22,015 nt of DNA from a virus, in the IMG/VR virus record IMGVR_UViG_3300021440_000134, positions 1 to 22,015 of that record. One strand, 5' to 3'. The stretch's first letter is position 1, and each line of letters begins with the position of its first letter. The notes beneath the pieces are model-generated. The model did no database searches and was not told the origin of the DNA. It worked only from the letters and a program-made list of their open reading frames with translations. A program made the position numbers and the translations under genes. Below, one piece after another: positions 1,160 to 20,748 of the stretch.

Positions 1160-1171
1160 GGAGCCCCAAAC

Positions 1172-2176: not shown

Positions 2177-2195
2177 CCCGGAAAGGACTCCCATC

Positions 2196-2663
2196 ATGTA
2201 TGTCGACAACAACCTGCTGCTGTCCGGCGCGATTTCCGGCAGCACCATCACCGGGCAGACCGTCACCGGCACTAACACCTCGGTGCTGTCCACCAACACC
2301 GTCGATCTGTTGCAGGCCCGCGACATGGGCGAAGGCCAGGATCTGTATCTGCGCGCGCAAGTCGTCACCGCAGTGGCCGGTGCCACCTCGATTGAGGTGC
2401 AGGCGATTGCCGCCGACGATGCCGCGCTCACGTCCAACGTGACGGTGATCGGCACCACCGGCGCCATTCCGCTGGCCTCTCTGACCGCCGGGGCGCGGCT
2501 CGCCTCGGCGATCAACGTGCGCCTGGCCAGCAAGGGCCAGCGCTATCTGGGCGCGCGCTACGTGATCGTCGGCACCGGCTCGGCCGGCGCCTTCGTGTGC
2601 GACCTCGGCATCGATATTCAGGACGGCCAGAAGTTCTATCCGTCCGGCTTCGCCGTGCTGTAA
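2196..2663 (+). CDS. Bbp16-family capsid cement protein
   Basis: This 155-residue protein is rich in small and beta-branched residues and predicted to be almost all beta strands. It opens with MYVDNNLLLSGAI and continues with DLLQARDMGEGQDLYLRAQV, a pattern I recognise from Bbp16-like cement proteins, which decorate and stabilise the BPP-1 capsid. The position immediately after the capsid gene supports this. A GGAAAGGA ribosome site precedes the ATG. The sequence has no cysteine-rich or enzymatic motif apart from a single Cys near the end. Expected to act on the outer capsid surface; stoichiometry cannot be judged. Confidence 0.82.
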   Translation: MYVDNNLLLSGAISGSTITGQTVTGTNTSVLSTNTVDLLQARDMGEGQDLYLRAQVVTAVAGATSIEVQAIAADDAALTSNVTVIGTTGAIPLASLTAGARLASAINVRLASKGQRYLGARYVIVGTGSAGAFVCDLGIDIQDGQKFYPSGFAVL

Positions 2664-2676
2664 GGAGGGCTGAGCG

Positions 2677-2844
2677 ATGCCGCAATTCCGCGTGCTGCAG
2701 AAGTCCTTCATCGGCGGGCGCATCGTCGAAGAGGGTGAGCTCGTCGACTACGACGGCGAAACCTCCGACAACCTCGAGCCGGTCAAGCCCCGCAAGAAAG
2801 GCGCCGAGCCGCCCGCCGAGCAGGCGGCCGCCAATCTGGTGTGA
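2677..2844 (+). CDS. Small conserved phage protein (55 aa)
   Basis: This short frame starts at ATG 2677 with a perfect AAGGAGG (2662-2668) and ends at TGA 2842-2844. It encodes MPQFRVLQKSFIGGRI..., followed by an acidic stretch and a Lys/Arg/Ala/Pro-rich tail (VKPRKKGAEPPAEQAAANLV). The strong ribosome site, the typical codon use and the place just before the head-block terminator make it a real gene. Small proteins opening with RVLxxSFIGG are common after phage coat/cement genes, but their job is unknown. The N-terminal part looks like a short beta unit and the tail looks disordered. Confidence 0.75.
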   Translation: MPQFRVLQKSFIGGRIVEEGELVDYDGETSDNLEPVKPRKKGAEPPAEQAAANLV

Positions 2845-2876
2845 CCTGATTCTCCTCCTGCCCTGGCGGCAGTTCG

Positions 2877-2910
2877 CGGGGCGCGTCGCAAGGTGCGCCC
2901 CGTTTTTGTT
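2877..2910 (+). terminator. Rho-independent terminator at the end of the head block
   Basis: CGGGGCGC (2877-2884) pairs with GCGCCCCG (2895-2902), followed by TTTTTGTT. It lies between the 55-residue gene and tail tubular protein A, giving partial separation of head and tail transcripts. Confidence 0.82.
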
Positions 2911-2921
2911 GAGGTGCCGAC

Positions 2922-3569
2922 ATGGCGAGCGAAACCGACATCTGCAATCTGGCCCTGGGCCACCTCGGCGACACCGCCAGCGTGACCAGCCTCAACCCGC
3001 CCGAGGGCAGCGCGCAGGCCGAGCACTGCGCGCGCTTCTACCCCCTCGCCCGTGACGCGCTGCTCGAGCTGCACCCGTGGGGCTTCGCCACCCGCCGCGT
3101 GGCGCTGGCGCTGCTTGGCAACGGCTGGCCGGAGTGGGATTACAGCTACGCGCAGCCGGCCGACGCGCTGAACCTCATTGCCGTGCTGCCGCCCGACGCG
3201 ACCAACGACTACAGTCAGGGCCTGGCCAGCGTGGCGCTGGCGGCCGGCGGCTACGTGCCGCAGGATTTCTCGTGCGAGACCGACCCCGGCGGCGCCGACG
3301 TGATCTATACCGACCAGCCCGACGCGGTGCTGCGCTACACCGCCATCATCACCGACACCAGCCGCTTCTCGCCGCTGTTCGTGGTGGCCTTGTCGTGGCA
3401 GCTGGCGGCCTTTCTGGCCGGCCCGATCCTCAAGGGCGAGGCGGGCGCGGCCGAGGCCAAGCGCTGCTCGGCGATGATGCGCGCCTACCTGGCCGAAGCC
3501 GCCGAATCGGACGCGCAGCAGCGGCGCATCAACCCGGTGCATAACGTCAGCTGGATCAACGGGAGGTAA
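2922..3569 (+). CDS. Tail tubular protein A-like (head-tail adaptor)
   Basis: The protein has 215 residues. The opening SETDICNLALGHLGD, then CARFYPLARDALLELHPWGFA (residues about 38-58), is the hallmark of the T7 gp11-like tail tubular protein A family, which forms the ring joining the portal to the nozzle. The rest is helical and ends with NPVHNVSWINGR. The neighbour downstream is a gp12-like nozzle protein, the standard pairing. The start ATG has GAGG about 10 bases upstream, just after the terminator. The stop is followed by the nozzle gene after 5 bases, so the two are co-translated. Confidence 0.87.
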   Translation: MASETDICNLALGHLGDTASVTSLNPPEGSAQAEHCARFYPLARDALLELHPWGFATRRVALALLGNGWPEWDYSYAQPADALNLIAVLPPDATNDYSQGLASVALAAGGYVPQDFSCETDPGGADVIYTDQPDAVLRYTAIITDTSRFSPLFVVALSWQLAAFLAGPILKGEAGAAEAKRCSAMMRAYLAEAAESDAQQRRINPVHNVSWINGR

Positions 3570-3574
3570 GCACT

Positions 3575-5890: not shown

Positions 5891-5893
5891 CCC

Positions 5894-5903
5894 GGTGCGC
5901 GTG
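5894..5903 (+). promoter_or_regulatory. Copy 2 of intergenic motif GGTGCGCGTG
   Basis: It is located 4 bases after the stop of the nozzle gene and 46 bases before the ATG of the next gene. It is identical to the copies at 201-210 and 15646-15655. A short GC-rich inverted stretch follows. The function is unproven; it could mark transcription start or RNA processing ahead of the internal virion genes. Confidence 0.3.
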
Positions 5904-5949
5904 CCCGCCGCGGCGCGCGCCATCCTGACGGCAATTAACGGAGGTCGTC

Positions 5950-6603
5950 ATGACTACAACTCCAAATGCCGGGCTCGGCGGCGCGTCCCTCGCCCTGATG
6001 GGGATCGGCGCCGTCGGCTCGGCGATCGGCACCTACCAGCAAGCCAAGTCCGCCAAGTCGCAACTGCGCTACCAGGCCGCAATCGCCGAGATCAACCGGC
6101 GGATGTCGGAGAGCAGCGCCCAGCAGGCCATGCAGCAAGGCCAACAGCAGGTTGCGGCTACGACCATGAAGTACGGCGCCGTGAAGAGCAGTCAGCGCGC
6201 GGCGATGGCGGCCAATGGCGTGGATCTTGGCACGGGCAATGCTGCCGAAGTGCAAGCCTCAACGGACATTCTGAAGGACATCGACAAGCAGACCATCGAG
6301 GCCAACGCGATCCGCGCAGCCTTTGGCTACCGCACGCAAGGAGCCAACTACGGTGCACAGGCCGGCATGGCCAATGCGTCGGCGTCAGGTATCTCGCCGG
6401 TCAGCGCAGGATTCTCGACCCTGCTGGGGAGCGCCTCAAAGGTGGCCGGCAGTTGGTACGGGCTCAGCAAAGTGGGCGCCCTGGATAACGGCGGGACCAC
6501 CGGGCAGATCGGGGGATCAGGAATGTCGATGAATGCAGCCGGGGAAACCGGCCTGAGCATTGGAGCCGGGAGCCAAGGTCTAAAATTTAATGGGTGGACC
6601 TGA
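5950..6603 (+). CDS. Internal virion protein, T7 gp14-like
   Basis: This 217-residue protein has one hydrophobic Gly/Ala helix near the N-terminus (residues about 9-28, GGASLALMGIGAVGSAIGTY). A long Gln/Ala-rich helical segment follows (QQAKSAKSQLRYQAAIAEIN and onward), and the tail is Gly/Ser-rich. This layout and its place right after the nozzle gene fit the small core protein of T7-like phages (gp14), which is ejected into the outer membrane at infection. The N-terminal membrane segment agrees with that role, which is inferred. CGGAGG lies 9 bases before the ATG. The stop overlaps the following start (TGATG). Confidence 0.72.
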   Translation: MTTTPNAGLGGASLALMGIGAVGSAIGTYQQAKSAKSQLRYQAAIAEINRRMSESSAQQAMQQGQQQVAATTMKYGAVKSSQRAAMAANGVDLGTGNAAEVQASTDILKDIDKQTIEANAIRAAFGYRTQGANYGAQAGMANASASGISPVSAGFSTLLGSASKVAGSWYGLSKVGALDNGGTTGQIGGSGMSMNAAGETGLSIGAGSQGLKFNGWT

Positions 6604-8786
6604 TGCCGATCGTACCCCGCATTGACGCGCCGCAGGTTGCGCCGGCCGGGCCGTCTTCAGCCCGCTTCGATGCCCCGCAAGCGCAGAACTACGCCGCCCA
6701 GCAGGGCGTGCAGATGGGCCGCAGCATGGAGGCGGCCGGCGGCGAGATCGCACGACTCGAAGCCGAGGCGCAGGCGCAGGCCAACCAGCTACGGGTTACC
6801 GACGCGCTGAACAAGGTCAAGGAAGCGCAACTGCGCATGACCTACGACAAGGATCAAGGCTACTCGGCGCTCAAGGGTATCCAGGCGCTCGAACGGCCAG
6901 ACGGCAAGCCATTGCACATGGAGTACGGCGATGCGCTGAACAAGCACATCGGCGAGGTGGGCGCATCGCTCGGCAACGATGCACAGCGCCAGCTTTTCGA
7001 TGCGCACGCCAAGGATATGCTGACCTCGTTTGTCGGCCAGGTGCAGGGCCACGAGCAGCAGGAGTTCAAGAATTATGGGCTGTCTGTCTCAGAAGGCGTG
7101 CAGGCCACGGCGCGGCGTGACATTGCGCTCAACTGGAACAACCCCGATGCCACCGATCAAGCGATCCTGCGCATCAAGTCCGAGGCCTACCGGCAAGGCC
7201 AGCTACTCGGCAAGTCGGCCGAGTGGCAGGACGCCGCGGCGCGCAAGCTCACCAGCGACGGGCACAAGATTGCCATGCTGACCGCGCTGGAAAACAACAA
7301 CCCGGCCTACGCCGACACCTACCTGAAAAAGTACGCCGGCCAGATGGAGGCCGACGACATCATGGCGGTACGCGGTCACATCACCAAACAGATGGACGCG
7401 CAGATCGCCAGCGGTGCGGCATCCGACGTTGTGCGGGAGTTTGTGCCCAAGCTGGCGCCGACCGACTTCGATCGCCTTATCAACATCACGATGGCCACCG
7501 AATCGAACGGCCAGCGCTACGGCAAGGGCGGCGGCCTGCTGACCTCCCCGAAGGGCGCCCGCGGTGAGATGCAGGTCATGCCGGCGACGGCGAAGAATCC
7601 GGGTTTTGGCGTAAAGCCCATCCAAGATGACAGCCCAGATGAGTTTGCGCGCGTAGGGCGGGATTTGCTGGGCGCGCTCCTCAAGCACTACGACGGCGAC
7701 CCGGCCAAAGCATGGGCAGCCTACAACGCCGGCTCCGGTCGCCTCGATGCGGCCCTGAAAGCAGCCGGCCGGCCGGTTCTCACCGAGGCCAACGACCCAA
7801 ACGCTCCGAACCCGAACAATGTTCCGATTTCGAAACGCATCGACTGGCTGTCGTTGATGCCCAAGGAAACGCAGGCTTACGTCGCCAAGAACATGGCCGC
7901 GCTCAGTGGCGGCCAGGGTACGCCGCAGCGCCCGACGCTGGCCGATGCGGAGGCGCAGCTCGCCGGCAATCCCGAGATCGCCAGCAACCCGGCCCGGCTC
8001 AAGCTGGCCCGCGAAGAACTGGCCCGGCAATGGAAGGTTCAGGAGGACGCCATCAAGCAGCGCGGGGAGGATGCGACGGCCGAGGCCATGCGCCAGTTGA
8101 TCGGCAACGGCGGGCACTTCAACGACCTGACGGCCAGCGTGAGAGGGGCCATCCCACCGAAGGAAGTCGACAACGTGCTCAACTTCGCCGCCCGGGTGGC
8201 AAAGGGCGAGGACATCACGAACCCGCTGCTTTACGCACGCTTGGCAGCCCACCCTGAAGAACTGGCGCGCATGAGTGATGCGCAGTTCTTCATGCTGCGC
8301 CGCGAGCTTTCCGAGTCCGACTCCAAGCACTTTGCCAACGAGCGCGCCAAGCAGCTGGGCAACGCGCCGGGAGCCAACGGACCGGGCGACCTCAACAGCG
8401 GCGCCATCAAGCAGACCCTCGACGCCCGCATGCGCGTGCTTGGCATGGACCCGACGCCCAAGGACGACGGCGGCGCGGACGCTGCGCGCATCGGTGCCGT
8501 TCGCCAGTTCGTCGATCAGTATTTCGTGGCCGCCCAGCGCGAGGCCGGAAAGAAGTTCACCGATGCCGAGGTGGCTCAGCACATCGACGCGCTGTTTGCA
8601 AAGAACGCGACTTTCCGCGGCTGGATCTATGACAAGTCCGGCCCGGTGCTCGGGATGAAGATCGGTGATATTGACGGCGCCGCCAAGGACAACATCAAGG
8701 CCGCATTCAAGCGCCGCGGGGTGGATAGCCCGACTGACGCCCAGATCATGAACGCTTACTGGAACATGAAATTCGCCCGCAAATGA
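6603..8786 (+). CDS. Internal virion lytic transglycosylase
   Basis: The protein has 727 residues from ATG 6603, which overlaps the previous stop as TGATG and has GGGTGG just upstream; GTG 6594 is an alternative start. Residues about 20-290 are helical and Ala/Gln-rich. Residues about 290-385 form an SLT-type lytic transglycosylase: ATESNGQRYG with likely catalytic Glu300, GARGEMQVMPATAKNPGFG (about 318-336) and AAYNAGSGRL with Tyr374. These residues cleave peptidoglycan glycan strands. The C-terminal half is helical without recognised catalysis. By position it replaces the T7 gp15/gp16 core genes, with which local wall digestion during DNA entry is associated. The gene overlaps the next start (ATGA). 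Confidence 0.85.
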   Translation: MPIVPRIDAPQVAPAGPSSARFDAPQAQNYAAQQGVQMGRSMEAAGGEIARLEAEAQAQANQLRVTDALNKVKEAQLRMTYDKDQGYSALKGIQALERPDGKPLHMEYGDALNKHIGEVGASLGNDAQRQLFDAHAKDMLTSFVGQVQGHEQQEFKNYGLSVSEGVQATARRDIALNWNNPDATDQAILRIKSEAYRQGQLLGKSAEWQDAAARKLTSDGHKIAMLTALENNNPAYADTYLKKYAGQMEADDIMAVRGHITKQMDAQIASGAASDVVREFVPKLAPTDFDRLINITMATESNGQRYGKGGGLLTSPKGARGEMQVMPATAKNPGFGVKPIQDDSPDEFARVGRDLLGALLKHYDGDPAKAWAAYNAGSGRLDAALKAAGRPVLTEANDPNAPNPNNVPISKRIDWLSLMPKETQAYVAKNMAALSGGQGTPQRPTLADAEAQLAGNPEIASNPARLKLAREELARQWKVQEDAIKQRGEDATAEAMRQLIGNGGHFNDLTASVRGAIPPKEVDNVLNFAARVAKGEDITNPLLYARLAAHPEELARMSDAQFFMLRRELSESDSKHFANERAKQLGNAPGANGPGDLNSGAIKQTLDARMRVLGMDPTPKDDGGADAARIGAVRQFVDQYFVAAQREAGKKFTDAEVAQHIDALFAKNATFRGWIYDKSGPVLGMKIGDIDGAAKDNIKAAFKRRGVDSPTDAQIMNAYWNMKFARK

Positions 8787-11700
8787 GTGACGATTTTGAT
8801 GCGGCCGTTGCCGCCACGCTACAGCCCAATCCCGGCCAGGCTGCCCGCGTGGGCTTTGCCACCGCCTACGGGATCGCCCCAGACGCTTACGCCGAGGCCA
8901 AGCGCATCGAGCGGCGCACCGGCATTCCGGCCGATTCTGTGCTTGCCAATCCTGCCGATGCCAAGCTGGAGGCGGCCGTTGGCAGCATCAACTTCGACAT
9001 GCTGGCCAAGACCGCGCCAGCGACTGCCGCGCTATTGGCCGACGTGGAGCGGGCCAAGGTATCTTACGACGACCTCGACAACCTGCAGGGCGCAGAGAAC
9101 GCGCTGAAAGCATGGAAGGGGCCGGCGCCGTCGTTCTCATCGGTGGCCGGCGGGTTTGCCGAGGCGCTGAAGTTCAAGCCGCTGGTGGCGAGCATGCGGC
9201 TCGCCATGAACGATCTGCTGTTCGGCGCCGGCAGCACGCCCGAGGATCAGGTGCGCCGCGCTGACCTGGTGCGCAAAGCCGGGCAGGCTCAGGTCCAGCA
9301 GGACGCGGCCACGCCGGCCTTTGAGTCCTCGACCGCAGCGGCGGCTTATTCTGGCGGCGTGTCGATCCTGCAGAACCTGCCGGGCTTTGCCGCGTCGATC
9401 ATGACCGGCAATCCGGCTCCTGGCCTCGCCCTGGCTGGCATCAATTCAGCGGCCCCGGCTTACGGCAAGTACGCCTCCCGTGGCGCGACCCTTGGCGAAG
9501 CGGCCGGCGGCGCGCTGGCCGAAGGCGCGGTGGAAATCGCCACCGAGGCGCTGCCGATGGGCTTCCTGGTGTCGAAGTTCGGCAAGGTTGGCGCGGGCGA
9601 GCTCATCGCCGGCATGCTCGGCCGCGAAATCCCGAGCGAGCAGGTCGCAACGCTGGTGCAGGATCTGGTTGATTCCGCCGTCGCCAATCCCGACAAGACG
9701 TTCGGCGACTATCTGGCCGAGCGCCCGGACGCAGCCTATCGAACCCTGATCGCCACGCTGGTGCAGGGCGGCGTGATGGGCGGCGCGTCCAAGATCGCCC
9801 AGGTTGCCAGCGGTCGGGCCGAACAGGCTCAGATGGCCGAAGAGCAGGCCGCCCGCATCGAGCAGTTCAACCAGTTCGCCGCCGCCTCCAAAGTGCTTCA
9901 ACGCGACCCGGAGGCATTCGCGCAGTTTGTCACCCAGGCCGCGCAGGATGGCCCGGTGCAGGCCGTGTTCATCGACGCGCAAGCCCTGCTGCAATCGGGC
10001 GTGGCCGATCAGGTGGCCGCGGTGTCGCCGGCCGTGGCTGACCAACTTGAGACAGCCGCAGCAACGGGTGGCCAGATCGCTATCCCGGTTGAAGAGTACG
10101 CCGCGGCCATCGCCCCGACCGAAGCGGCCGGCGCGCTGCTGGATCACCTCAAGACCGACCCCGAGGGATTCAGCCGCGCCGAGGCGCAGGCCTACATGCA
10201 GGAGCAGGGCACAGAGCTGCAGGCCGAGGTTCAGCGCCTGCTGGCCAACCGTGAGACCGCCGACACGTTCAAGGCTCAGGCCGACGTGGTGCGTAGCACG
10301 ATCCTCGACCAGCTCAACACCGCCGGCCGCTTCACTGGCCCGGTGAACGAGCCCTACGCCTCACTGGTCGGTAACTTCTACGCGGTACAAGCGGCGAAGC
10401 TGGGCACGACGCCAGAAGAGCTGTATCAGCGGTATCCGCTGACGGTGGGGGCGGAGGGCTTTGGCGGGCAGCAGTTGGAGCAGGGGGGCGCCATCGATGA
10501 CGTGCGCAAGGCCTGGAGCGAGGCCGGCATCAAGCACGCGATCAGCGAGAAGAACGGCATCATCACTTTGTCGCAGATCGTCGTGCCTGAAAACGAGCGC
10601 GGCGCCGGCAAGGGCACGGCCGCCATGCAGGCGCTGATCGATTACGCCGACCGCACAGGCCAGCACGTCGCCCTCTCGCCCTCGGCCGACTTCGGCGGCA
10701 ACAAGAAGCGCCTGACCGAGTTCTACAAGCGCTTCGGCTTCGTCGAGAACAAGGGTAAGAACCGGGCATTCACGACCGGCGAGAGCATGTACCGGCAGGC
10801 TGCGGGGAAGGTGCTGCATCAGTCTGCTGTCGATGCAAAAGTTGTGTTGCGAGACTTTCTCAACGGTCCAGCGATCGCAGAATTACGCGGGGATGAGGCG
10901 CCAACGACGGGGTTCAGGGCGCTCCGTGAGTGGGCAACATCAATATTCATGGCTGCCCCCTATAACGGGAAGGCGGAAAACCCCGAGCTAGGCGAAGTGC
11001 TGATGGACGCGCGATCCGTGAAGGATTCTATCGGGCACGGCATGAACCCCTACAAGGCTGCCGCGTTCGCGGCAGTGCCGAATGTCATTGCGCGCGGCAG
11101 AGTGGTGTTCGTCGAGCCGAAGAATGATCGGACGGACAGCATTTATGTGTCTGCTCCAGTCCGGATCGGCAACGTGGATGCCATCGTGACGGTGTTGATC
11201 CGCAAAGACTACAACACCCAGCGGATGTATCTGCACAGCGTCACCACAAAGGAAAACCTCCTTGATGCCCGAGTGTCCGGTGTTGATACCAAGATATCCG
11301 AACGGTCCGGCTCGTCGCTTCAAGGAGGCATTTCCAATGTACTCCGGGGGCTGATGAATTTCAAGTCAGATGACGCCTACGAGCAAGGCCCCCGCGGCGC
11401 CTTTTCCCCGGCAAGCTGGAACATCGCGATCCTGAAGGATGCAGACCTATCCACCTTCCTGCACGAAACCGGGCATGCCTTCCTCGAGATGCAACTCGAC
11501 ATGGCCGCCCAGCTCGGCGCGGCCGGCGACCTGTCGCCCGGCGAGCAGGAGATTGCCGCCGACGCCGAAGCGCTGATGCGCTGGTTCGGGCTGCGCGACC
11601 TGGCCGAATGGCAATCGCTCGACTTCGAAGAGCGCCGGCACCATCACGAGCAGTTCGCCCGCGGCTTTGAGGCTTACTTGTTTGAGGGCCGGGCACCGAG

Positions 11701-14700
11701 CATCGAACTGGCCGGGCTGTTTCAGCGCTTCCGCGCGTGGCTGCTGAACGTCTACCGCGACATCAAGGCGCTCAACGTCGAACTGACCGACGAGGTGCGC
11801 GGCGTGTTCGACCGCATGCTGGCGACGAACGAGCAGATCCAGCTCGCCGAGATGGGGCGCTCGATGATGCCGCTGTTCAGCAGCGCGGAGCAGGCCGGCA
11901 TGACGCCCGCCGAGTTTGCCGCGTATCAGGCTCTCGGCACGCAGGCCACGGCCGACGCCATCGAGGATCTGCAGGCGCGCGGTCTGCGCGATCTGAAGTG
12001 GATGCGCAACGCCAGAAGCCGTGAAATGTCACGATTGCAGAAAGAGGCCGACGCCCAGCGCGCGCAGATTCGCATGGTGGCGCGCCGCGAAGTCATGAGC
12101 CAGCCCGTCTATCGCGCGTGGCAGTTCCTCACCGGCAAGATGGGTGCCGACAACAAGATCGGCGAGCCGGAGTCCGTTCAGTCAGACCCGGACATCGTTG
12201 ATCCAGGCCTTGACTCCCTGTTCGTCGCCATCGCCAAACTCGGCGGCATCGAGCGGGCCAGCGCGGCGAACCTGTGGGGCACCAAGCCCGAGGACAAACC
12301 GCAGTCGGGGCTCTTCGGCAAGCCCGTGCTGCGCGCCGAGGGCAAGGGTTACACCGTCGACCAGATGGCCGAGAAGCTGGCCGAGCTGGGTTACCTTGAG
12401 CACGACGAAGACGGCAACGGCGCGCTGCGGGCCTTCGAGGAAGCCTTCCAGGCCGAGCTGGGCGGCTCGCCGGCCTATTCCAGTCAGGCCGACTACGACC
12501 TTCTGCGGGCAAACGACGTGCGGCCCGGCGACCAGGTGCCCAACCCCGGCGCACTCACCGCCGGCCGACTCGACGCCGCGGGGCTGTCGGACATCGGCCC
12601 GCCGCCGGAGGTGGTCGCAATCCTCAAGGCGCGGCGCATGACTTCGGCAAACGGTCTGCACCCTGACATTGTGGCCGAGCTGTTCGGCTTCGCGTCCGGC
12701 GATGAGATGGTCCGCACCCTGGCCGCAGCCACCGCTCCGAAGGAAGAAATCGATGCGCTTACCGATCAGCGGATGCTGGAGAGGTTCGGCGAGCTGGCCA
12801 CGCCCGACGCCATTGCGCGCGCAGCCGATGCGGCAATTCACAACGCGGCCCGCGGCCGGATGCTGGCGACCGAAGCCAACGCCCTGGCGAAGGCCACCGG
12901 GCAGCGCAAGATCCTGACCGAGGCCGCCCAGGATTTTGCTGCGAAGATGATCGCCCGCCTCAAGGTGCGCGACATCCGGCCGGCCATGTACGCCAGCGCC
13001 GAGGCTCGAGCCGCCCGGGCCGCCAAGAAGGCCCGCGACGCGGGCGACCTGGCGACCGCCGCCGCCGAGAAGCGCAACGAGCTGGTGAATCACTACGCGA
13101 CCCGCGCCGCCTACGACGCGCAGGCCGAGGTGCGCGCCATCCTGCGCAACTTCGCCGAGTTCGCCAACCGGCCCGACAAGCGGCTGGGCAAAGCCTACGA
13201 CCTCGACATAGCCAACGCGGCCCGGGCGATCCTGGGCGAGTACGGCATCGCCGAGAAGCGCGCGAAGAAGGCCGGCGACTACCTGAAGGCGGTTGAATCC
13301 TACGACCCCGAGCTCTACGGCGTGCTCAAGGCGAGCCTTGACGCCGCCGAAGCCAATGCCAAGCCCGTGCAGCAAATGACCGTCGAAGAGGTGCGCGGCT
13401 TGCGTGACGAGATCGACGCCATGCTGCACCTGGCTCGGCGCTCCCGGCAGATGGAGATCGACGGCGACTTGATGGACCGCGAGGACGTGGAGAACGCACT
13501 GTTCGCCCGCCTCGAAGAAATCGGCATCCCTGACACCATCCCCGGCGAAGAGCAGGCGGTGACGCCGGCCGATTCCCGCCTGGCCAAGCTGCGCGCCTTC
13601 ATTGCGTCGGCTCGCCGGGTCGAGAGCTGGGTCGGCGCGATGGATGGGGGGCAGGGCGTGGGGCCGTTCCGGCGCTTCGTGTTTTCCCGCATCAAGGACG
13701 CAGCCGACGCCTACCGGGCCGACAAGGCGCAGTACCTGCGCCGCTTTCGTGGCCTGTTCGACGGCATCGCGCCAACCCTCAAGCCGCAGCTGATCGCGGC
13801 GCCGGAGCTTGGCTATACCTTCGGCAAGGACTCGGGCGGCTCGGGCATGAACGAGATCCTGCACGCCCTGCTGCACACCGGCAACAGCAGCAACAAGAGG
13901 AAGCTCCTCCTTGGCCGCAAATGGGCGCAGGAGCTGCCTGACGGCACGCTCGACACCTCGAGGTGGGACGCCTTCGTTTCGCGCATGGTCCGTGAAGGCA
14001 AGATCACCAAGGCGCATATGGACTTCGTGCAGGGCGTTTGGGACTTGCTGGAAGAGACCAAGGCCGGCGCCCAGCGCACCCACCGTGACGTGTTCGGGCG
14101 CTACTTCGACGAGGTGACGGCCGAGCCGGTCACGACGCCCTGGGGCGAGTACCGCGGCGGCTACGTGCCGGCGATGGCCGACGCCCGGGTAGTGCAGGAT
14201 GCCAACCTGCGCGCGCTGGCCGAAGAGGATAACGCCGCGATGGCCTACGCCTTCCCGACCACGCCGAAGGGCTTCACGAAGGCCCGCGTCGAGTACAACC
14301 GGCCGCTTATGCTGGACCTGCGCACGCTCGCCCAGCATATCGACAAGGTGCTGCTGTTCAGCCATATGGAGATGCCGGTGCGCGACGTGCAGCGCGTGCT
14401 TTCCAGGAAAGTCGGGCAGGCGCTCGGCCGCGTCGAGCCGGCGGCGATCCCGGCCATGCTCCAGCCCTGGCTGGCCCGCGCGGCCCGGCAACAGGTCGAA
14501 ACGCCCGTCGCGGGGTCGGCCGGCCTCATGCGCTTCTTCTCCGTGATGCGCGCCCGCGCCGGCGCGGCGGCCATGTTCGCCAACGTCAGCAACGCCGCCC
14601 AGCAGATCACCGGCTTTGCGCTGGCTGGCGTCAAGGTGCGGCCCGGCTTGTTGCTGTCGGCCGCTGGCGACTACCTGAAGGCGCCGCGCGACGTGGCCCG

Positions 14701-15643
14701 CACTGTGGCCGAGTCGTCGCCCTACATGGCCAGCCGCATGGATAACGAGGTGGCGGTGATGAACGGCGAGATCAGCGACATCCTGCTGAACCCCTCGCTG
14801 CTTGAGCAGGGCCAGAACTGGACGATGCGCCACGCCTATTTCCTGCAGTCGGCCGTCGATAACGTGATGGGGCCGATCATCTGGACCGCTGTTTACAATC
14901 AGGCGGTAGCGGCCGGCGAAACCGAGCGCGACGCCGTGCGCCTGGCTGATGCCGCGATCCGCGAGACGCAGGGCAGCAGCCTGCCCGAGGACATCAGCCG
15001 GATCGAGGGCGGCAACGCCTTCGTACGCCTTTTCACGCAGTTCGCCGGCTACTACAACATGCAGGCCAACCTGTTGGGCAGTGCGTTCGTGCAGATCGCC
15101 CGTGATGGCGGTCTGCGCCAGAACGCCGGCCGTGGGCTGTTCGTGCTGGGGCTGGGCTTCCTGGCACCGGCCATCGTGGCCGAGGGCATCGCGCAGTTGT
15201 TCCGCGGCGGGCCGGACGATTCCGACAAGGACGGTGAGTATCTGGACGACTGGATCGCGGCCCTGTTCGGCTGGGGGATGTTGCGCAACGTCACGGCAAT
15301 GGTCCCGGTTGTCGGGCAAGGCCTCAATGCGCTGGCGAATGCCACCAACGCCAAGCCCTACGACGACCGACTCGCCACCTCGCCGGCCGTGTCGATGCTC
15401 GAGAGTGCGGCCCGTGCCCCCGTGTCGGTATTCAAGGCGGTGACCGGCGAGGGCAGCACGCAGAAGGCGGTGCGCGATGTGGCGACCCTCATCAGCATGA
15501 CGGTGGGCCTGCCGGCCAATCTGGCGGCGCGGTCAGTGGGTTACGCGGCAGGCGTGGCCGAGGGCCGCATCAACCCGACCGGCCCGGCCGATGCCGCTCG
15601 CGGCATGGTGACGGGTGCCGCATCGGCGGAGTCGCGCCGGTAG
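8783..15643 (+). CDS. 2,286-residue polyvalent (injected) protein: GNAT, nuclease-like and metallopeptidase domains
   Basis: The ATG overlaps the previous stop (ATGA), so it is coupled to the transglycosylase. Residues about 180-290 are Gly/Ala-rich and hydrophobic. Residues about 575-665 look like a GNAT acetyltransferase, with the CoA-binding pattern R606-G-A-G609-K-G611 and a later YKRFGFVE. Residues about 720-830 resemble the LPD3/MuF-C type of BECR-fold nuclease: DSIGHGMN with His752, AAFAAVPNVIARGRVVF, and YLHSV with His818. Residues about 885-970 carry a zincin motif, LHETGHAF (His894, Glu895, His898), and a possible third ligand Glu963 in GFEAYLFEG. About 1030-1600 is charged and helical. 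The C-terminal 370 residues contain hydrophobic stretches, the clearest near 2116-2138. Polyvalent proteins of phages are known to combine such domains and enter with the DNA; that role here is inferred. No methylase or helicase motif was seen. Confidence 0.78.
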   Translation: MSDDFDAAVAATLQPNPGQAARVGFATAYGIAPDAYAEAKRIERRTGIPADSVLANPADAKLEAAVGSINFDMLAKTAPATAALLADVERAKVSYDDLDNLQGAENALKAWKGPAPSFSSVAGGFAEALKFKPLVASMRLAMNDLLFGAGSTPEDQVRRADLVRKAGQAQVQQDAATPAFESSTAAAAYSGGVSILQNLPGFAASIMTGNPAPGLALAGINSAAPAYGKYASRGATLGEAAGGALAEGAVEIATEALPMGFLVSKFGKVGAGELIAGMLGREIPSEQVATLVQDLVDSAVANPDKTFGDYLAERPDAAYRTLIATLVQGGVMGGASKIAQVASGRAEQAQMAEEQAARIEQFNQFAAASKVLQRDPEAFAQFVTQAAQDGPVQAVFIDAQALLQSGVADQVAAVSPAVADQLETAAATGGQIAIPVEEYAAAIAPTEAAGALLDHLKTDPEGFSRAEAQAYMQEQGTELQAEVQRLLANRETADTFKAQADVVRSTILDQLNTAGRFTGPVNEPYASLVGNFYAVQAAKLGTTPEELYQRYPLTVGAEGFGGQQLEQGGAIDDVRKAWSEAGIKHAISEKNGIITLSQIVVPENERGAGKGTAAMQALIDYADRTGQHVALSPSADFGGNKKRLTEFYKRFGFVENKGKNRAFTTGESMYRQAAGKVLHQSAVDAKVVLRDFLNGPAIAELRGDEAPTTGFRALREWATSIFMAAPYNGKAENPELGEVLMDARSVKDSIGHGMNPYKAAAFAAVPNVIARGRVVFVEPKNDRTDSIYVSAPVRIGNVDAIVTVLIRKDYNTQRMYLHSVTTKENLLDARVSGVDTKISERSGSSLQGGISNVLRGLMNFKSDDAYEQGPRGAFSPASWNIAILKDADLSTFLHETGHAFLEMQLDMAAQLGAAGDLSPGEQEIAADAEALMRWFGLRDLAEWQSLDFEERRHHHEQFARGFEAYLFEGRAPSIELAGLFQRFRAWLLNVYRDIKALNVELTDEVRGVFDRMLATNEQIQLAEMGRSMMPLFSSAEQAGMTPAEFAAYQALGTQATADAIEDLQARGLRDLKWMRNARSREMSRLQKEADAQRAQIRMVARREVMSQPVYRAWQFLTGKMGADNKIGEPESVQSDPDIVDPGLDSLFVAIAKLGGIERASAANLWGTKPEDKPQSGLFGKPVLRAEGKGYTVDQMAEKLAELGYLEHDEDGNGALRAFEEAFQAELGGSPAYSSQADYDLLRANDVRPGDQVPNPGALTAGRLDAAGLSDIGPPPEVVAILKARRMTSANGLHPDIVAELFGFASGDEMVRTLAAATAPKEEIDALTDQRMLERFGELATPDAIARAADAAIHNAARGRMLATEANALAKATGQRKILTEAAQDFAAKMIARLKVRDIRPAMYASAEARAARAAKKARDAGDLATAAAEKRNELVNHYATRAAYDAQAEVRAILRNFAEFANRPDKRLGKAYDLDIANAARAILGEYGIAEKRAKKAGDYLKAVESYDPELYGVLKASLDAAEANAKPVQQMTVEEVRGLRDEIDAMLHLARRSRQMEIDGDLMDREDVENALFARLEEIGIPDTIPGEEQAVTPADSRLAKLRAFIASARRVESWVGAMDGGQGVGPFRRFVFSRIKDAADAYRADKAQYLRRFRGLFDGIAPTLKPQLIAAPELGYTFGKDSGGSGMNEILHALLHTGNSSNKRKLLLGRKWAQELPDGTLDTSRWDAFVSRMVREGKITKAHMDFVQGVWDLLEETKAGAQRTHRDVFGRYFDEVTAEPVTTPWGEYRGGYVPAMADARVVQDANLRALAEEDNAAMAYAFPTTPKGFTKARVEYNRPLMLDLRTLAQHIDKVLLFSHMEMPVRDVQRVLSRKVGQALGRVEPAAIPAMLQPWLARAARQQVETPVAGSAGLMRFFSVMRARAGAAAMFANVSNAAQQITGFALAGVKVRPGLLLSAAGDYLKAPRDVARTVAESSPYMASRMDNEVAVMNGEISDILLNPSLLEQGQNWTMRHAYFLQSAVDNVMGPIIWTAVYNQAVAAGETERDAVRLADAAIRETQGSSLPEDISRIEGGNAFVRLFTQFAGYYNMQANLLGSAFVQIARDGGLRQNAGRGLFVLGLGFLAPAIVAEGIAQLFRGGPDDSDKDGEYLDDWIAALFGWGMLRNVTAMVPVVGQGLNALANATNAKPYDDRLATSPAVSMLESAARAPVSVFKAVTGEGSTQKAVRDVATLISMTVGLPANLAARSVGYAAGVAEGRINPTGPADAARGMVTGAASAESRR

Positions 15644-15645
15644 TG

Positions 15646-15655
15646 GGTGCGCGTG
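15646..15655 (+). promoter_or_regulatory. Copy 3 of intergenic motif GGTGCGCGTG
   Basis: It lies 2 bases after the stop of the 2,286-residue gene and 50 bases before the tail-fibre ATG, identical to the copies at 201-210 and 5894-5903. Shared placement in gene gaps argues for a signal rather than chance, but the function is not known. Confidence 0.3.
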
Positions 15656-15667
15656 GCGGTTTCCTCT

Positions 15668-15692
15668 GGGGATAGCCTTTCGGCAAATCCCC
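15668..15692 (+). promoter_or_regulatory. Hairpin just before the tail-fibre ribosome site
   Basis: GGGGAT (15668-15673) pairs with ATCCCC (15687-15692), enclosing a smaller GCC/GGC stem around TTTC. The 3' side abuts the likely Shine-Dalgarno CCGGAG (15693-15698). There is no T-run, so it is not a terminator. It could tune tail-fibre translation or be an RNA-processing site. Confidence 0.35.
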
Positions 15693-15705
15693 CGGAGCGC
15701 CGCGC

Positions 15706-17196
15706 ATGACTGTATCGAGCACCACCCGCAAAGCCGGCCCCTATACGGGCAACGGCATCACCACTGCATTTCCGTTCGCGTTCAAGGTGTTTGCCGCCTC
15801 GGAGGTGCGTGTCGTGCGTACCGACCTGGCCAGCGTCGAAACCGACTTGACGATGGGCGCCGATTACACGGTGGCCCTCAACGCCGACCAGGACGCCAAC
15901 CCAGGCGGCACCGTCACCGCCACCACGGCGCCGGCCAACGGCTTTTTGATCACCGTCACCAGCCAGCTGGCCAACCTGCAGGCGATGACCCTGACCAATC
16001 AGGGCGCGTTCTATCCCAAGGTGATCAATGACGCGCTGGACCGCGCGACGATCCAGATTCAACAGGTCGCCGAACAGTTGTCGCGTGCGGTCAAAGTGGC
16101 CATCTCCAGCAGCACCACGCCGGAACAACTGGTCGCCCAGCTCAACAACAATGCCACCGCCGCCGCCGCCTCGGCCGGCAGCGCCGCCGCCTCGGCCGCC
16201 GCCTCGGCCGCCTACCTCGCGGCCATGGCGGCCATCGCGCAATCGTTCCGCAACAAGATCGTCAATGGCAATTTCGATGTTTGGCAGCGCGGCACGAACT
16301 TTCCCGCAATGGCCAACTACGACTTCTGCGCCGACCGCTGGCAGCCGATGTTCGACGGCACGGGGGTAGTGATTGCCGCCTCGGCGCTTAACGTCGTGAT
16401 CCCGTTCAATGGCTTTCTGAAGTCGACCTATGCGCTGCGCTACAACTGCACCGCCAACGGCACGGGGGCCAGCTATCGCCGCCTGATCACCAAGCTCGAG
16501 GGCGTCGGCACGCTGCAGGGCAAGACGGTCACCTTCTCGGCGCGCCTGGCCGCCAGTACCCCGCTGAGCGTGCGCATCGGCTTCAATCAGGACTTTGGCA
16601 CCGGCGGCGCTCCATCGGTCACCGTGGGCGCATATTCAGGCTATCAGACCGTCAGCAGCACCGGCATCTATTCCTGGACCGTCACGCTGCCGTCGATCGC
16701 CGGCAAGACGCTGGGCACCAACGGCAACGACTGCCTGTGGGTGATCATCGACATGCCCGTCGGCAGCACCTACTACATGGATATGGGAGAGATCCAGCTT
16801 GAGGAGGGCAGCACCGCCACCGCCTTCGAGCAGCGCCCCGTCGCCGTGGAAACGATGCTGTGTCAGCGCTACTTCTGGCGTACCGGCGGCGTAGTCGGTG
16901 CGTTCTACGGCAGCGCCGCCAACCTGTCCACCAACACTGCGGGAGTCTATTTCCCGCACCCGGTGCGCATGCGGGCGATCCCCACCGTGACGGTGAGCGC
17001 CGCCAGCGACTGGTACGTGCGCAACTACACCAACGACACCAGCTATGCCGCCACCACGATCCCGGCGGCCGTGCCGACCGCCGAAGGCACGCTGGTCAAG
17101 ATGGCCATCGGCACGGCCAGCCTGACCGCCGGCGGCGGAGCGTCGCTGGTGCCGGCGGTGAGCAGCGCTACGATTTCGTTCTCCTCCGAGCTTTGA
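15706..17196 (+). CDS. Tail fibre protein with T7-type N-terminal anchor
   Basis: The protein has 496 residues. The N-terminus (MTVSSTTRKAGPYTGNGITT, then AFPFAFKVFAASEVRVVRTD, and YPKVINDALDRATIQIQQVA near 105-124) is the conserved T7 gp17-like virion anchor. Residues about 150-180 are an Ala/Ser-rich helical linker coded by short GC repeats. The distal part begins at KIVNGNFDVWQRGTNFP (about 183 onward). This pattern starts many phage receptor-binding jelly-roll domains and includes a carbohydrate-module-like YYMDMGEIQLEEG stretch around 363-375. The remaining C-terminus is beta-rich and should recognise the host surface. CCGGAG precedes the ATG. The next gene follows after 3 bases. Confidence 0.87.
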   Translation: MTVSSTTRKAGPYTGNGITTAFPFAFKVFAASEVRVVRTDLASVETDLTMGADYTVALNADQDANPGGTVTATTAPANGFLITVTSQLANLQAMTLTNQGAFYPKVINDALDRATIQIQQVAEQLSRAVKVAISSSTTPEQLVAQLNNNATAAAASAGSAAASAAASAAYLAAMAAIAQSFRNKIVNGNFDVWQRGTNFPAMANYDFCADRWQPMFDGTGVVIAASALNVVIPFNGFLKSTYALRYNCTANGTGASYRRLITKLEGVGTLQGKTVTFSARLAASTPLSVRIGFNQDFGTGGAPSVTVGAYSGYQTVSSTGIYSWTVTLPSIAGKTLGTNGNDCLWVIIDMPVGSTYYMDMGEIQLEEGSTATAFEQRPVAVETMLCQRYFWRTGGVVGAFYGSAANLSTNTAGVYFPHPVRMRAIPTVTVSAASDWYVRNYTNDTSYAATTIPAAVPTAEGTLVKMAIGTASLTAGGGASLVPAVSSATISFSSEL

Positions 17197-17199
17197 ACC

Positions 17200-17592
17200 A
17201 TGACCTACCAACGCACCGACACCGACGCCGTGATCCGCCTCGCGGACGGCGCCACCATCCCCGCAGCCCCCGGCAATGCCGACTGGGATGCGTATCTGGA
17301 CTGGCGCGCGGCCGGCAACTCCCCTGAGCCGGCCGCGCCGGCGCCGTCCCTCGTGCCGGTATCCGTCAGCATGCGCCAGGCCCGACTCGCGCTGCTGCAG
17401 GCCGGGCTGCTCGGCCAGGTCAGCACCGCAATCGCGGCGCTGCCGGGCATAGAAGGCGACGCCGCGCGCATCGAATGGGAGTTTTCCCCCACCGTAGCCC
17501 GCGACTGGCCGCTGGCGCTGGCCATCACTACGGCAATCGGCCTGAGCGGCAGCCAGGTTGATGAGCTGTTCCGGCTGGCGGCCACGCTGTAG
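17200..17592 (+). CDS. Tail-fibre-associated protein, possible chaperone
   Basis: The protein has 130 residues. The N-terminal part (VIRLADGATIPAAPGNADWD, then YLDWRAAGNSPEP) is the pattern of small proteins commonly encoded after phage tail fibres, some proposed to help fibre assembly. A Pro/Ala linker leads to a C-terminal domain (SMRQARLALLQAGLLGQ, then IEWEFSPTV and GLSGSQVDELFRLA). This C-terminal domain is similar to the fragment encoded at 1-147. The start lies 3 bases after the tail-fibre stop with only weak ribosome binding, so translation is probably coupled. Function is inferred from position only; I cannot tell chaperone from structural component. Confidence 0.65.
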   Translation: MTYQRTDTDAVIRLADGATIPAAPGNADWDAYLDWRAAGNSPEPAAPAPSLVPVSVSMRQARLALLQAGLLGQVSTAIAALPGIEGDAARIEWEFSPTVARDWPLALAITTAIGLSGSQVDELFRLAATL

Positions 17593-17601
17593 GAGCGCGC
17601 G

Positions 17602-17976
17602 ATGGCCGAACCCACCTCCACCACCGCCGCATCCGTCAGCCTCGCGGTGCTGCTCATCGGCGTCCTCGGCCCCACCGCCGGCCCCTGGATCGCCATCATT
17701 GCCGGCGCCTGCGGCGGTGTCCTGTGGCCGCTCTCGGGCGCCGACACGCCAACTGGATGGGCCGCGTTGATGCTCGCAACGCGCTGTGTCGGCACATCCA
17801 TCGTGCTCACCGGCATCATTGCCGGCTATATCGAGCGCACCTATCAAGTGCCGATCAACGAGTCCCTGGCCGGCGTCGCCCTGATCATCAGCGCGTTGGG
17901 TAACGGATGGCGCCCGATATTCGCGGGCGTCGGCGATCTGCTGCGCGCCACCGTCCCCGGAGGGCGCGGCAAATGA
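17602..17976 (+). CDS. Putative holin (three membrane helices)
   Basis: This 124-residue protein has hydrophobic segments at about residues 13-42, 52-75 and 88-105, a short polar N-terminus, and a basic C-terminal end (ATVPGGRGK). Size, three-helix layout and a late-operon place after the tail fibre fit a class I phage holin that would permeabilise the inner membrane at lysis. No sequence family is recognised with certainty, so another small membrane protein is possible. AGGAG overlaps the previous stop, 6 bases before the ATG. The stop overlaps the next start as ATGA. Confidence 0.55.
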   Translation: MAEPTSTTAASVSLAVLLIGVLGPTAGPWIAIIAGACGGVLWPLSGADTPTGWAALMLATRCVGTSIVLTGIIAGYIERTYQVPINESLAGVALIISALGNGWRPIFAGVGDLLRATVPGGRGK

Positions 17977-18302
17977 CCGCCGTCGCCCTGCTCGTCGCCC
18001 ACACCGCGCTCTGCCTGGTCCTCATCGCCGGGGTAATCCGGCGAGCGGTCATGATGAGCGAGGACGTGATGATCGATGTGCGCCTCGCCTTCGTCTTGCT
18101 CGGCGCCGTAGCGTTATTCGGGCTCGTGGCGCCCCTTGTCCTGTGCTGGGAGCCCGACCCCGTCAGCCTCTCGCTCGCCGGATCGATCGCGCTCATCCAG
18201 CATGTCACCGCCCGACACTGGCGCTATGGCGTGCCGGTCCACTACTACCGGCCGCACAGGCGGCCGGGCGAGAAAGTGGAGGTCGCGCCGGTCATCAAGT
18301 AG
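17973..18302 (+). CDS. Small membrane protein, possible second lysis protein
   Basis: The protein has 109 residues from ATG 17973, coupled by ATGA to the putative holin, with GGAGGG upstream. An upstream in-frame start at 17907 would overlap the holin heavily and is less likely. Two clear hydrophobic helices lie at about 3-23 (VALLVAHTALCLVLIAGVI) and 41-60 (LLGAVALFGLVAPLVLC). A weaker one lies near 66-80. The C-terminus is basic and aromatic (RHWRYGVPVHYYRPHRRPG), probably cytoplasmic. It may be an antiholin or pinholin partner, but no family is recognised. This is the last gene of the late + strand block. Confidence 0.55.
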   Translation: MTAVALLVAHTALCLVLIAGVIRRAVMMSEDVMIDVRLAFVLLGAVALFGLVAPLVLCWEPDPVSLSLAGSIALIQHVTARHWRYGVPVHYYRPHRRPGEKVEVAPVIK

Positions 18303-18323
18303 CGGCCCGCACCGGGTTAAAAA

Positions 18324-18344
18324 TGTCGACCAACTTGTCGACCA
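18324..18344 (+). repeat. Left pair of direct repeats, putative integrase arm-type sites
   Basis: TGTCGACCA occurs at 18324-18332 and 18336-18344, starts 12 bases apart. Related copies in the same orientation lie beyond the core at 18488-18496 and 18499-18507. Paired short repeats on both flanks of a core are typical of arm-type sites bound by the N-terminal domain of tyrosine integrases. Confidence 0.55.
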
Positions 18345-18362
18345 TTCGGCCCGAAACAGCCC

Positions 18363-18412
18363 AAAAAAAAGGCCTACAAATCCATTGTTAGGATATGTAA
18401 GCCTTTGTTTTT
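18363..18412. terminator. Bidirectional terminator between converging late and integrase operons
   Basis: AAAGGCCTACA (18368-18378) pairs with TGTAAGCCTTT (18396-18406) with one mismatch that becomes a G-U pair on the - strand. A-rich sequence lies on the left (18363-18370) and T-rich on the right (18404-18412), so either strand reads a stem followed by a U run. It would end the + strand late transcript. On the - strand it lies just downstream of the ssrA-like 3' end. Confidence 0.75.
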
Positions 18413-18424
18413 AAAGCTAAATAG

Positions 18425-18452
18425 TGGTGGAGCTGGGGGGAATCGAACCCCC
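18425..18452 (-). other. attP core: 3' end of tmRNA (ssrA)
   Basis: Read on the - strand, this is a T arm (GGGGG, loop TTCGATT, CCCCC), then CAGCTCC, discriminator A and CCA. The acceptor strand CAGCTCC can pair with the GGGGCUG that begins many bacterial tmRNAs. No D arm, anticodon arm or peptide-tag region precedes it, so it is only a 3' segment, as carried by phages that integrate into ssrA and restore its end. A full tRNA is excluded. The exact crossover limits cannot be set without an attB. The lack of any matching elongator tRNA acceptor makes ssrA the best reading. Confidence 0.75.
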
Positions 18453-18487
18453 GCGAATGCCGCATAAACGCTGTGTATCAGGCCAAT

Positions 18488-18507
18488 TGTTGACCATAAG
18501 TCGACCA
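18488..18507 (+). repeat. Right pair of direct repeats, putative integrase arm-type sites
   Basis: TGTTGACCA (18488-18496) and AGTCGACCA (18499-18507) match the left-hand TGTCGACCA pair with one change each and have similar spacing (11 bases). They lie between the core and the 3' end of the integrase gene. Confidence 0.5.
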
Positions 18508-18521
18508 TCCGCCTGTGCCGC

Positions 18522-19715
18522 CTACCCCGTCTTGCGGCCTTGAGTTTGATTCCCGGAGTCGCAATCGAACAGCGCTTCGGCCTTGCTGCCGGCGTCGGGT
18601 GCTGCATCGGGCATCCACTTGCCGTACCGCTGCCGGATCATGCCCCAGTCGGCGTGGCCCATCTGCCGGGCGACCCACATCGGGTGCTCGCCGGCGCTGA
18701 GCATCATCGACGCGTAGGTGTGGCGGGTCTGGTAGGGGTTGCGGTAGCGCACGCCGGCGCGGCGCAAGGCGGGCTCCCACAGCGTTTTGCGGATCGGCGC
18801 GTCGCCCTGCCACGGCGCGCCGGTGCGTGGATTGCAAAAAACATGCTGGCCTGCCAAAAATGTGTGGGCCTTTTGCGCCTCGAGGGCGGCGCGGGCCGGC
18901 GCCAACAGCTTGACGGTGCGCTTGCTGCTGCGGGTCTTGGGCGTCTCGGCTTGGCCTTTGGCGGCGAGTGTTGTTGCGCGGCGGATCGAGGCCTCGCCGC
19001 GCACGAGATCCACGTCACCCCACTGCAGGGCGACCAGCTCGGAGGTGCGCAGTCCGGTCCAGAGTGCGAGCTGTACCAGGTTGCGCCCCTGCTCGGGCAG
19101 CGCCGCGAGGATCGCCGCTTGCTCGGCGCGGGTGAACGGATCGATGTCGTCATCCTCTTTGGGCGGCGTGTTGCGGGCGAAAGTCCAGTCACGGATGCAG
19201 TTGTGGCTGATGAGCTCGTCGTCGACGGCGTCGGTGAGGGCGGCGCGCAGCACGGATAACACATTGCTGATGCGCTTGTTGCCGGCCGCCAGGCCCTCGC
19301 ACATCTTGCGCACGTCGCCGCGCTTGAGCTCGCCGAGCAGGAGGTCGCCCAGGTCGGGCACGAGCCGGCCTTTGATCGCTTTGCGGTAGCCATCGGCCGT
19401 GCTGGCCTTGATGGTCGGCGCCTTGCTGTCGATCCAGGCCTCCAGATATTTGCCAACGGTAAGGCCAGCAGACGGAGGACTCGGCGCAAAACGGGCAGCA
19501 TTTTTGCTGCCCGGAAAGGTGGTCTCGTAATCAAACTCTCCGCGCTCGATCGCGTGGAGGATGGCGGCGCGGTGCTGCGCCGCGCGCCTCAGATTAGCGG
19601 CGGTGGGCTCGAGCCTGAGCCTTTCGCGGCAGCGCTGGCCGCGGAAGCGGAAGTCGATTTCAATGGTCGAGTCCGAACCCGGCCGAACGCCTGGGTGCTG
19701 CCGGTCACTGCCCAT
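18522..19715 (-). CDS. int: Tyrosine-type site-specific integrase
   Basis: The protein has 397 residues from ATG 19715, chosen because GAGGGA (19724-19729) lies 8 bases upstream and the family motif begins here; the longer frame from 19769 lacks such support. Residues about 10-60 (STIEIDFRFRGQRCRERLRL, then LEPTAANLRRAAQHRAAILH) match the DUF3596-type arm-DNA-binding domain. Residues about 85-170 form the core-binding helical domain. The catalytic domain shows Arg223 (GLRTSEL), Lys260 (TPKTRSSK), Arg331 (YQTRHTYAS, with Tyr in place of the usual first His of HxxR), His354 (QMGHADWG) and nucleophile Tyr364 (RQRYGKW). It recombines attP with attB. It overlaps the excisionase gene by 127 bases and stops 69 bases before the ssrA-like core. 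Confidence 0.93.
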   Translation of the reverse strand: MGSDRQHPGVRPGSDSTIEIDFRFRGQRCRERLRLEPTAANLRRAAQHRAAILHAIERGEFDYETTFPGSKNAARFAPSPPSAGLTVGKYLEAWIDSKAPTIKASTADGYRKAIKGRLVPDLGDLLLGELKRGDVRKMCEGLAAGNKRISNVLSVLRAALTDAVDDELISHNCIRDWTFARNTPPKEDDDIDPFTRAEQAAILAALPEQGRNLVQLALWTGLRTSELVALQWGDVDLVRGEASIRRATTLAAKGQAETPKTRSSKRTVKLLAPARAALEAQKAHTFLAGQHVFCNPRTGAPWQGDAPIRKTLWEPALRRAGVRYRNPYQTRHTYASMMLSAGEHPMWVARQMGHADWGMIRQRYGKWMPDAAPDAGSKAEALFDCDSGNQTQGRKTG

Positions 19716-19882
19716 TGGTTGTATCCCTCGATGTCGATCAGGTTGCGGCCGTCCGGCGCCTTGACCCACACGAGGCCCTCTTGCCAGATGCCATCCCTGA
19801 TTTTGGTCCTGATAGCCTCCTCAGTGTAACCGCTCTCCGCCGAAAAACGGCGGATCGTCAGGTAGCGGATGGGGACGGTCAT
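19589..19882 (-). CDS. xis: Excisionase-like protein (DUF1233 type)
   Basis: This 97-residue protein has an N-terminal winged-helix-like segment, IRYLTIRRFSAESGYTEEAI, followed by IRDGIWQEGLVWVKAPDGRN and IDIEGYNQWAV. The RDGIW...WVKAPDGR...YNQW pattern is that of the DUF1233 putative excisionase family, small DNA-bending proteins that steer integrase toward excision. The last 35 residues are Ser/Ala/Pro-rich and lie over the integrase start in another frame. The ATG at 19882 has only a weak ribosome site, so translation probably depends on upstream genes. The int/xis overlap is similar in kind to lambda and implies co-transcription. Confidence 0.8.
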   Translation of the reverse strand: MTVPIRYLTIRRFSAESGYTEEAIRTKIRDGIWQEGLVWVKAPDGRNLIDIEGYNQWAVTGSTQAFGRVRTRPLKSTSASAASAAAKGSGSSPPPLI

Positions 19883-19902: not shown

Positions 19903-20748
19903 TTAATCGCCGCAGAAGCAGGCGATGGGGGATTCTTCGTCGTTGAACAGCCGCCGCTGCTCGGCAGCGAATTTGGCCATCTGTGCGTAGCTCGGTCGGT
20001 CAGAGCGGAATATCATGCCGCTGGCCTTGTTGCCGACGCTGGCCGCGAAAGACTCCATCTTTGCCCACCAGTCTGCCCGCTCCGGCTGCACTTGAATTAG
20101 GGTAAAAATCTGATTTGCCGGTTTGAGGAAACACAGGTCGCAATTTCCGGATAGGGTCCGGCCTTGGTATGTATCTAGTTCCAAATCAAATGGCTGACCT
20201 GCCCAAAATTTTCCGATCTGATGGACATCCACGCCAGCCGCGTACAGCGGAATGCGGGATTTGTCATCGATCTTGGCTGCCCGGCGCTCTTCGTCTGCGC
20301 GGATGCCAACCCAGCTTATCCGCTCACCTTCGGCTCGTGTCTCAGCAATGCCCACCGATAACAGGTAGTTGGCAATCGTGCGGATCTTCATTTCGATGGT
20401 GCAAAAGCGCGTCACGGGGTTGGGCAGGTACTGCTTTGCACGAATCACCGCCTCGAACGGCTCTCCGTGCCGACTGGCAGCCTCGAAATTGACGATGCGG
20501 AATCGCTGGCGGCTCTGCTCATGTGGGATGTACTCCAGCCACACGATAGGGACTGACCACTCATCCGCGCACCTTTTGACAAAGCGCAGCGTGGCCTCAT
20601 CCTCTTTGCCCGTGTTTGCAAAGCAAACGACGGACTCGGCCGGAAGTCCGCCGTTGGATTGCAGCACGCGCCATAGCATGTAGGCGCTTGTGCGCCCACC
20701 GCTGAAGCTGATGCACGTCGGCTCGGTGATTTTAAAAGGGTCGCGCAT
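19903..20748 (-). CDS. PAPS reductase-like / PP-loop ATPase family protein
   Basis: This 281-residue protein carries the PP-loop SFSGGRTSAYML (SGGRTS at residues 16-21), which binds ATP and releases pyrophosphate. VVCFANTGKEDEATL follows at about 40-54 and TRFCTIEMK (Cys116) at 113-121. Further cysteines form CDLC (203 and 206) and CFC (277 and 279), which could bind a metal or Fe-S cluster together with Cys116. The family includes PAPS reductases and related thiolation enzymes (DndC, TtcA, ThiI). Phage members have unknown substrates; sulfur metabolism or nucleic-acid thiolation are possibilities only. The start overlaps the previous gene by 17 bases, with AGGGA upstream. Confidence 0.82.
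   Translation of the reverse strand: MRDPFKITEPTCISFSGGRTSAYMLWRVLQSNGGLPAESVVCFANTGKEDEATLRFVKRCADEWSVPIVWLEYIPHEQSRQRFRIVNFEAASRHGEPFEAVIRAKQYLPNPVTRFCTIEMKIRTIANYLLSVGIAETRAEGERISWVGIRADEERRAAKIDDKSRIPLYAAGVDVHQIGKFWAGQPFDLELDTYQGRTLSGNCDLCFLKPANQIFTLIQVQPERADWWAKMESFAASVGNKASGMIFRSDRPSYAQMAKFAAEQRRLFNDEESPIACFCGD

Follow-up and report, generated by a model that had tools for sequence, protein, structure and literature searches.

The window analysed in this study, a linear virus record taken at its full length of 22,015 bases, raises the question of why a fragment of bacterial ssrA, the gene for the ribosome-rescue RNA, should lie between the late genes and the integrase gene of a phage. 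The fragment is located in 18303-18521, which is precisely a non-coding gap, with the stop of a late open reading frame at 18302 on its left and the end of the integrase gene at 18522 on its right. On the strength of the core's identity, of arm sites that match on its two sides and of an integrase clade found at ssrA, the gap is understood, with high confidence from sequence comparison, as the attP of a temperate podophage of BPP-1-like type, the tyrosine integrase of which would recombine with the 3' end of host ssrA. The core of the proposed attP is the following.

18425-18452, minus strand: 28-base ssrA 3' end, identical to 3' ends of ssrA in genomes of Burkholderiales

This 28-mer, GGGGGTTCGATTCCCCCCAGCTCCACCA, comprises the T arm, the 3' acceptor strand and the CCA of tmRNA, its parts being the T-stem GGGGG, the T-loop TTCGATT, CCCCC, the acceptor CAGCTCCA and CCA. 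The exact string is present in 9 of 399 sampled Burkholderiales genomes and, together with the preceding GGAC, in 13 of 300 genomes from one family, that of one of the nine; genome G281 was counted in both samples, and the distinct genomes with the exact 28-mer number 21. In these sampled genomes it occupies the ssrA 3' end without exception, and wherever a 28-mer genome locus was scanned, ARAGORN reads a tmRNA gene whose tag peptide is normal. The reversed sequence, used as control, had no match in the sampled genomes, and the core match to ssrA 3' ends is not due to chance. Exact agreement between window and host is bounded by the first G of the T-stem and, on the other side, by the end of the CCA, which is thus included in the identity. 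Neither Rfam nor ARAGORN detects a complete tRNA or tmRNA gene in the window, the 28-base fragment being too short for them, and this is as expected for an attP fragment. The tmRNA 3' end that the preliminary description had placed between late block and integrase gene is therefore there as an exact string, and it is ssrA in the sampled genomes. Separately, the 28-mer lies in three viral contigs (L079, L081, L082) within what ARAGORN calls as tmRNA genes of permuted, two-piece type.

The core is flanked on either side by repeats of arm type, four copies in all and each in the same direction, as befits an attP.

18488-18496, minus strand: integrase-side arm site of GGTCAAC type, 36 bp from the core (direct repeat D1; the 36-bp gap is also found in relatives)
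18499-18507, minus strand: integrase-side arm site of GGTCGAC type, 47 bp from the core (repeat; spacing in relatives)
18336-18344, minus strand: late-side arm site, GGTCGAC, 81 bp from the core (repeat; spacing in relatives)
18324-18332, minus strand: late-side arm site, GGTCGAC, 93 bp from the core (repeat; spacing in relatives)

When the gap was shuffled 300 times with dinucleotides preserved, no shuffle gave four copies of any such 9-mer. The geometry is preserved near base-exactly in relatives having integrases of 56-74% identity, at ssrA sites in Achromobacter, Bordetella and Chromobacterium: the gaps are 36/47 on the integrase side (attR) and 90/102 on the late side in Achromobacter, 36/47 in attR and 79/91 in attL in Bordetella trematum, and 81/93 in Chromobacterium. 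The viral record L198 (IMG/VR 3300043640_000023), where the attP is likewise uninterrupted, has arm gaps of 80/92 on the late side; on its integrase side one site is at 47 and the other is degenerate. The Achromobacter late-side arm (L199, 12700-12900) contains a 10-bp repeat (ggctgttttg), about one helical turn, which explains 90/102 in place of ~80/92. The cognate elements mostly use GGTCAGC or GGTCAAC as arm motif, with the spacing of the window. The GGTCGAC variant occurs on both arms of the window, which indicates that the two sides belong together and argues against a join at the core, be it of two prophages or a chimera. The preliminary claim of an intact ssrA attP is thus borne out by core identity, by paired arm sites and by cognate integrases that occupy ssrA in the three betaproteobacterial genera named above. 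The block CCGCATAAACGCTG (18458-18474), between the core and the integrase-side arms, has an orientation opposite to its counterpart CCGCATRAAYACTG in 9 of 9 related loci checked.

Directly adjoining the gap are the genes expected to act on it.

18522-19715, minus strand: tyrosine integrase with Arm-DNA-bind_2, SAM-like and catalytic domains (PF12167, PF14659, PF00589; phrog_1)
19589-19882, minus strand: excisionase (phrog_9668), by homology a bbp49 homologue, overlapping the integrase start as it does in L198

The start of the integrase, which thus brings an arm-binding domain next to the core, is placed at the ATG at 19715, as suggested by its relatives. A phage-type phosphoadenosine-phosphosulphate-reductase-like gene (phrog_424, 19903-20748) is situated just past the excisionase. 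Integrases of 70-74% identity adjoin ssrA 3' ends in B. trematum, in Achromobacter sp. Root83 and in the viral records L005-L007, and the window integrase groups with this clade in a FastTree tree (support 0.99). All integrases with at least 70% identity and a resolved site are at ssrA. At 55-60% identity the targets are mixed, comprising ssrA (Chromobacterium, H4907) and tRNA-Ser, and the use of tRNA-Ser by some of these integrases counts against the ssrA assignment.

Comparison with individual systems suggests that the integrase and its attP form a module. The ssrA elements of Achromobacter sp. Root83 and B. trematum resemble the window in integrase (72-74% identical), core type, arm spacing and terminator form, but have the core variant GGGGGTTCAATTCCCCCCGGCTCCACCA; in related virus records of this type (G007-G011) the capsid protein of the window had no match, nor did it in the ssrA-integrase virus records as a whole, a set without positive control. 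In L198, as in the window, an ssrA-type attP without interruption separates the integrase from late or lysis genes of the phage, but the 22.8-kb record is without match to the window capsid protein and has the degenerate arm site noted above. Halomonas phage vB_HmeY_H4907 has an ssrA-type core in its record and an integrase ~55% identical to that of the window. Its capsid is 99.3% identical to that of Halomonas prophage Phm1, which is inserted in ssrA and whose excision and attP have been quantified by qPCR (PMC11131426); unlike the window phage, both belong to another phage lineage and host.

The late-side arm has a second element, positioned directly 3' of the ssrA segment and read in the direction of ssrA.

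18363-18407, minus strand (ssrA direction): Rho-independent terminator, stem and eight Ts, detected by folding, its form kept in relatives
18354-18362, minus strand: GGGCTGTTT motif following the T run, common to the late-side arms of relatives on comparison by eye

The terminator is a strong one and folds with -27.4 kcal/mol (z -6.2). A promoter/terminator scanner missed it, probably because of the scanner's rules for stem and tail. Hairpin, T run and GGGCTGTTT or GGGCTATTT are found at the same place in L198, Achromobacter, B. trematum and Chromobacterium, with stems that differ. Achromobacter and B. trematum have a second terminator past the displaced ssrA fragment, presumably the host's own. 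The best reading of these features, from sequence and folding, is that the phage supplies a substitute for the ssrA terminator which its insertion would displace. On balance, we consider it probable that the late-side arm is dual-purpose, combining integrase arm sites with a terminator, at fixed spacing, to replace that of the rebuilt ssrA, and that in the integrase clade, whose members ride on unrelated phages, this feature is conserved in its form and not in its sequence.

At att sites in tRNA and tmRNA genes, strand exchange usually takes place within the T-arm. In the window phage, the T-arm stem would accordingly provide the inverted core sites and the 7-base loop the overlap. Upon insertion, the phage core would restore ssrA and the phage terminator would end its transcript; the end of the late genes would then adjoin ssrA, and the integrase would come to lie next to the displaced fragment, at the opposite end of the prophage. 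The arrangement predicted for the window is seen in the Achromobacter relative (L199), where ~12 kb separate an intact ssrA (12894-13283), next to which the late-side arm lies, from a displaced 3' fragment (at 817) that is adjoined by the integrase. With a length of only ~12 kb, that element is possibly a satellite or a prophage that has become defective. The Islander study describes attP as a ~250-bp segment in which a fragment of the tRNA/tmRNA target serves to restore the gene; among integration targets, it reports the strongest enrichment for the tmRNA gene (PMC4383910). The search of ssrA genes that the preliminary description had advised was productive as regards the 21 genomes and the integrase relatives at ssrA, and it did not reveal the integrated form of the window phage: ssrA loci with the exact 28-mer had neither an integrated copy, which counts against the ssrA attP reading, nor a GGGCTGTTT arm downstream of ssrA. 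A single arm-like heptamer, without partner, is found at +170 of the ssrA locus in L215.

The gene content on the other side of the gap relates the phage to BPP-1, of all described phages the nearest to it.

545-17196, plus strand: BPP-1-like late block with scaffold, major capsid (GP7), tail tubular protein, transglycosylase, 2286-aa internal protein and tail fibre
17200-18302, plus strand: end of the late block, with small open reading frames at 17200-17592, 17602-17976 and 17907-18302

Homologues of bbp9 (N-terminal part) to bbp14, bbp17 and bbp18 follow in order at 32-77% identity, extending from the scaffold to the N-terminus of the tail fibre. For the small open reading frames, lysis functions are a guess from position. 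At 545-700, the start of the scaffold-like protein, AADPPGDTLLTEPP is repeated three times in tandem. BPP-1 also shares the circular order of late end, att and xis-int: its record starts at an att identical to the tRNA-His 3' region and ends with the xis-int genes, of which bbp49 and bbp50 are homologous to the excisionase (45%) and the integrase (only 34%) of the window. Unlike the window phage, BPP-1 has its attP in the tRNA-His 3' end. It also carries a diversity-generating cassette (brt, mtd), to which there was no match in the window, the sequenced half of the phage. We regard the window phage as related to Rauchvirus and make no claim of membership. A BPP-1-like sister phage (G418, L204; capsid 89%) has another tyrosine recombinase, named by eye from its sequence, at 6879-8090 beside a complete tRNA-Ser(TGA) gene. 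Related prophages integrated elsewhere, anticipated as contrary evidence, do therefore exist, but they have different integrases. The different integrases and att sites of BPP-1 and other late-block relatives indicate exchange of the int-attP module among these phages and leave the ssrA site unrefuted. Host genes at the flanks, the other such contrary finding, were not found: late genes are on one side, and the excisionase and the reductase-like gene on the other. A literature search found no paper on the window phage.

An uninterrupted attP implies a free genome, whether excised, circular, packaged or concatemeric, or, less likely, the junction of tandem copies. The unintegrated or circular, concatemeric and tandem states initially proposed are thus the right ones, and BPP-1 shows the same circular order. 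The free form is ordinary for a temperate phage and most likely for this record, as it is the simplest source of a viral contig. That the record instead represents a tandem-prophage junction or an intracellular concatemer, and not a free circle or virion genome, is unlikely. If a second copy entered an att site of a resident prophage, the two would likewise meet in a complete attP, and terminal repeats that would demonstrate a circle are absent from the record. Since both arms match as one module, fusion of two different prophages at the core is improbable, an argument that does not cover identical copies. Considerably less plausible is an assembly chimera of a BPP-1-like late block with an unrelated integrase module or attL. 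Consistent with a chimera, the combination of late block and integrase was found in no second record, which counts against the ssrA attP reading as well, and the nearest late-block relatives are without the window integrase (no match in 30 sister records, a set without positive control). However, the late-side arm contains the integrase's own arm sites and the terminator at conserved spacing, which in practice excludes a join at the core; the chimeric join would need to fall in the ~20 bp after the stop at 18302, and the gene order is the same in BPP-1. Least probable of all, and rejected on integrase family and attP geometry, is targeting of tRNA-Ala, for although 1 of 7 viral-contig matches to the 28-mer is the 3' end of a tRNA-Ala(GGC) in the tRNA-rich contig L085, so that the 28-mer by itself is not fully ssrA-specific and the match counts against ssrA, all matches in the sampled Burkholderiales genomes are ssrA, as are the resolved sites of the closest integrases.

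Lastly, our analysis has importance in assigning to an uncultured BPP-1-like podophage a predicted insertion point, orientation and prophage ends, all set by the ssrA attP, and in providing a clue to its host, namely betaproteobacteria whose ssrA ends in the 28-mer. The gap is suggested as a docking site of the ordinary kind for a temperate phage, in which the copy of the ssrA end would permit insertion, repair of the gene and a new signal for transcription to stop. The int-attP modules with a built-in ssrA terminator appear to move between unrelated phages.
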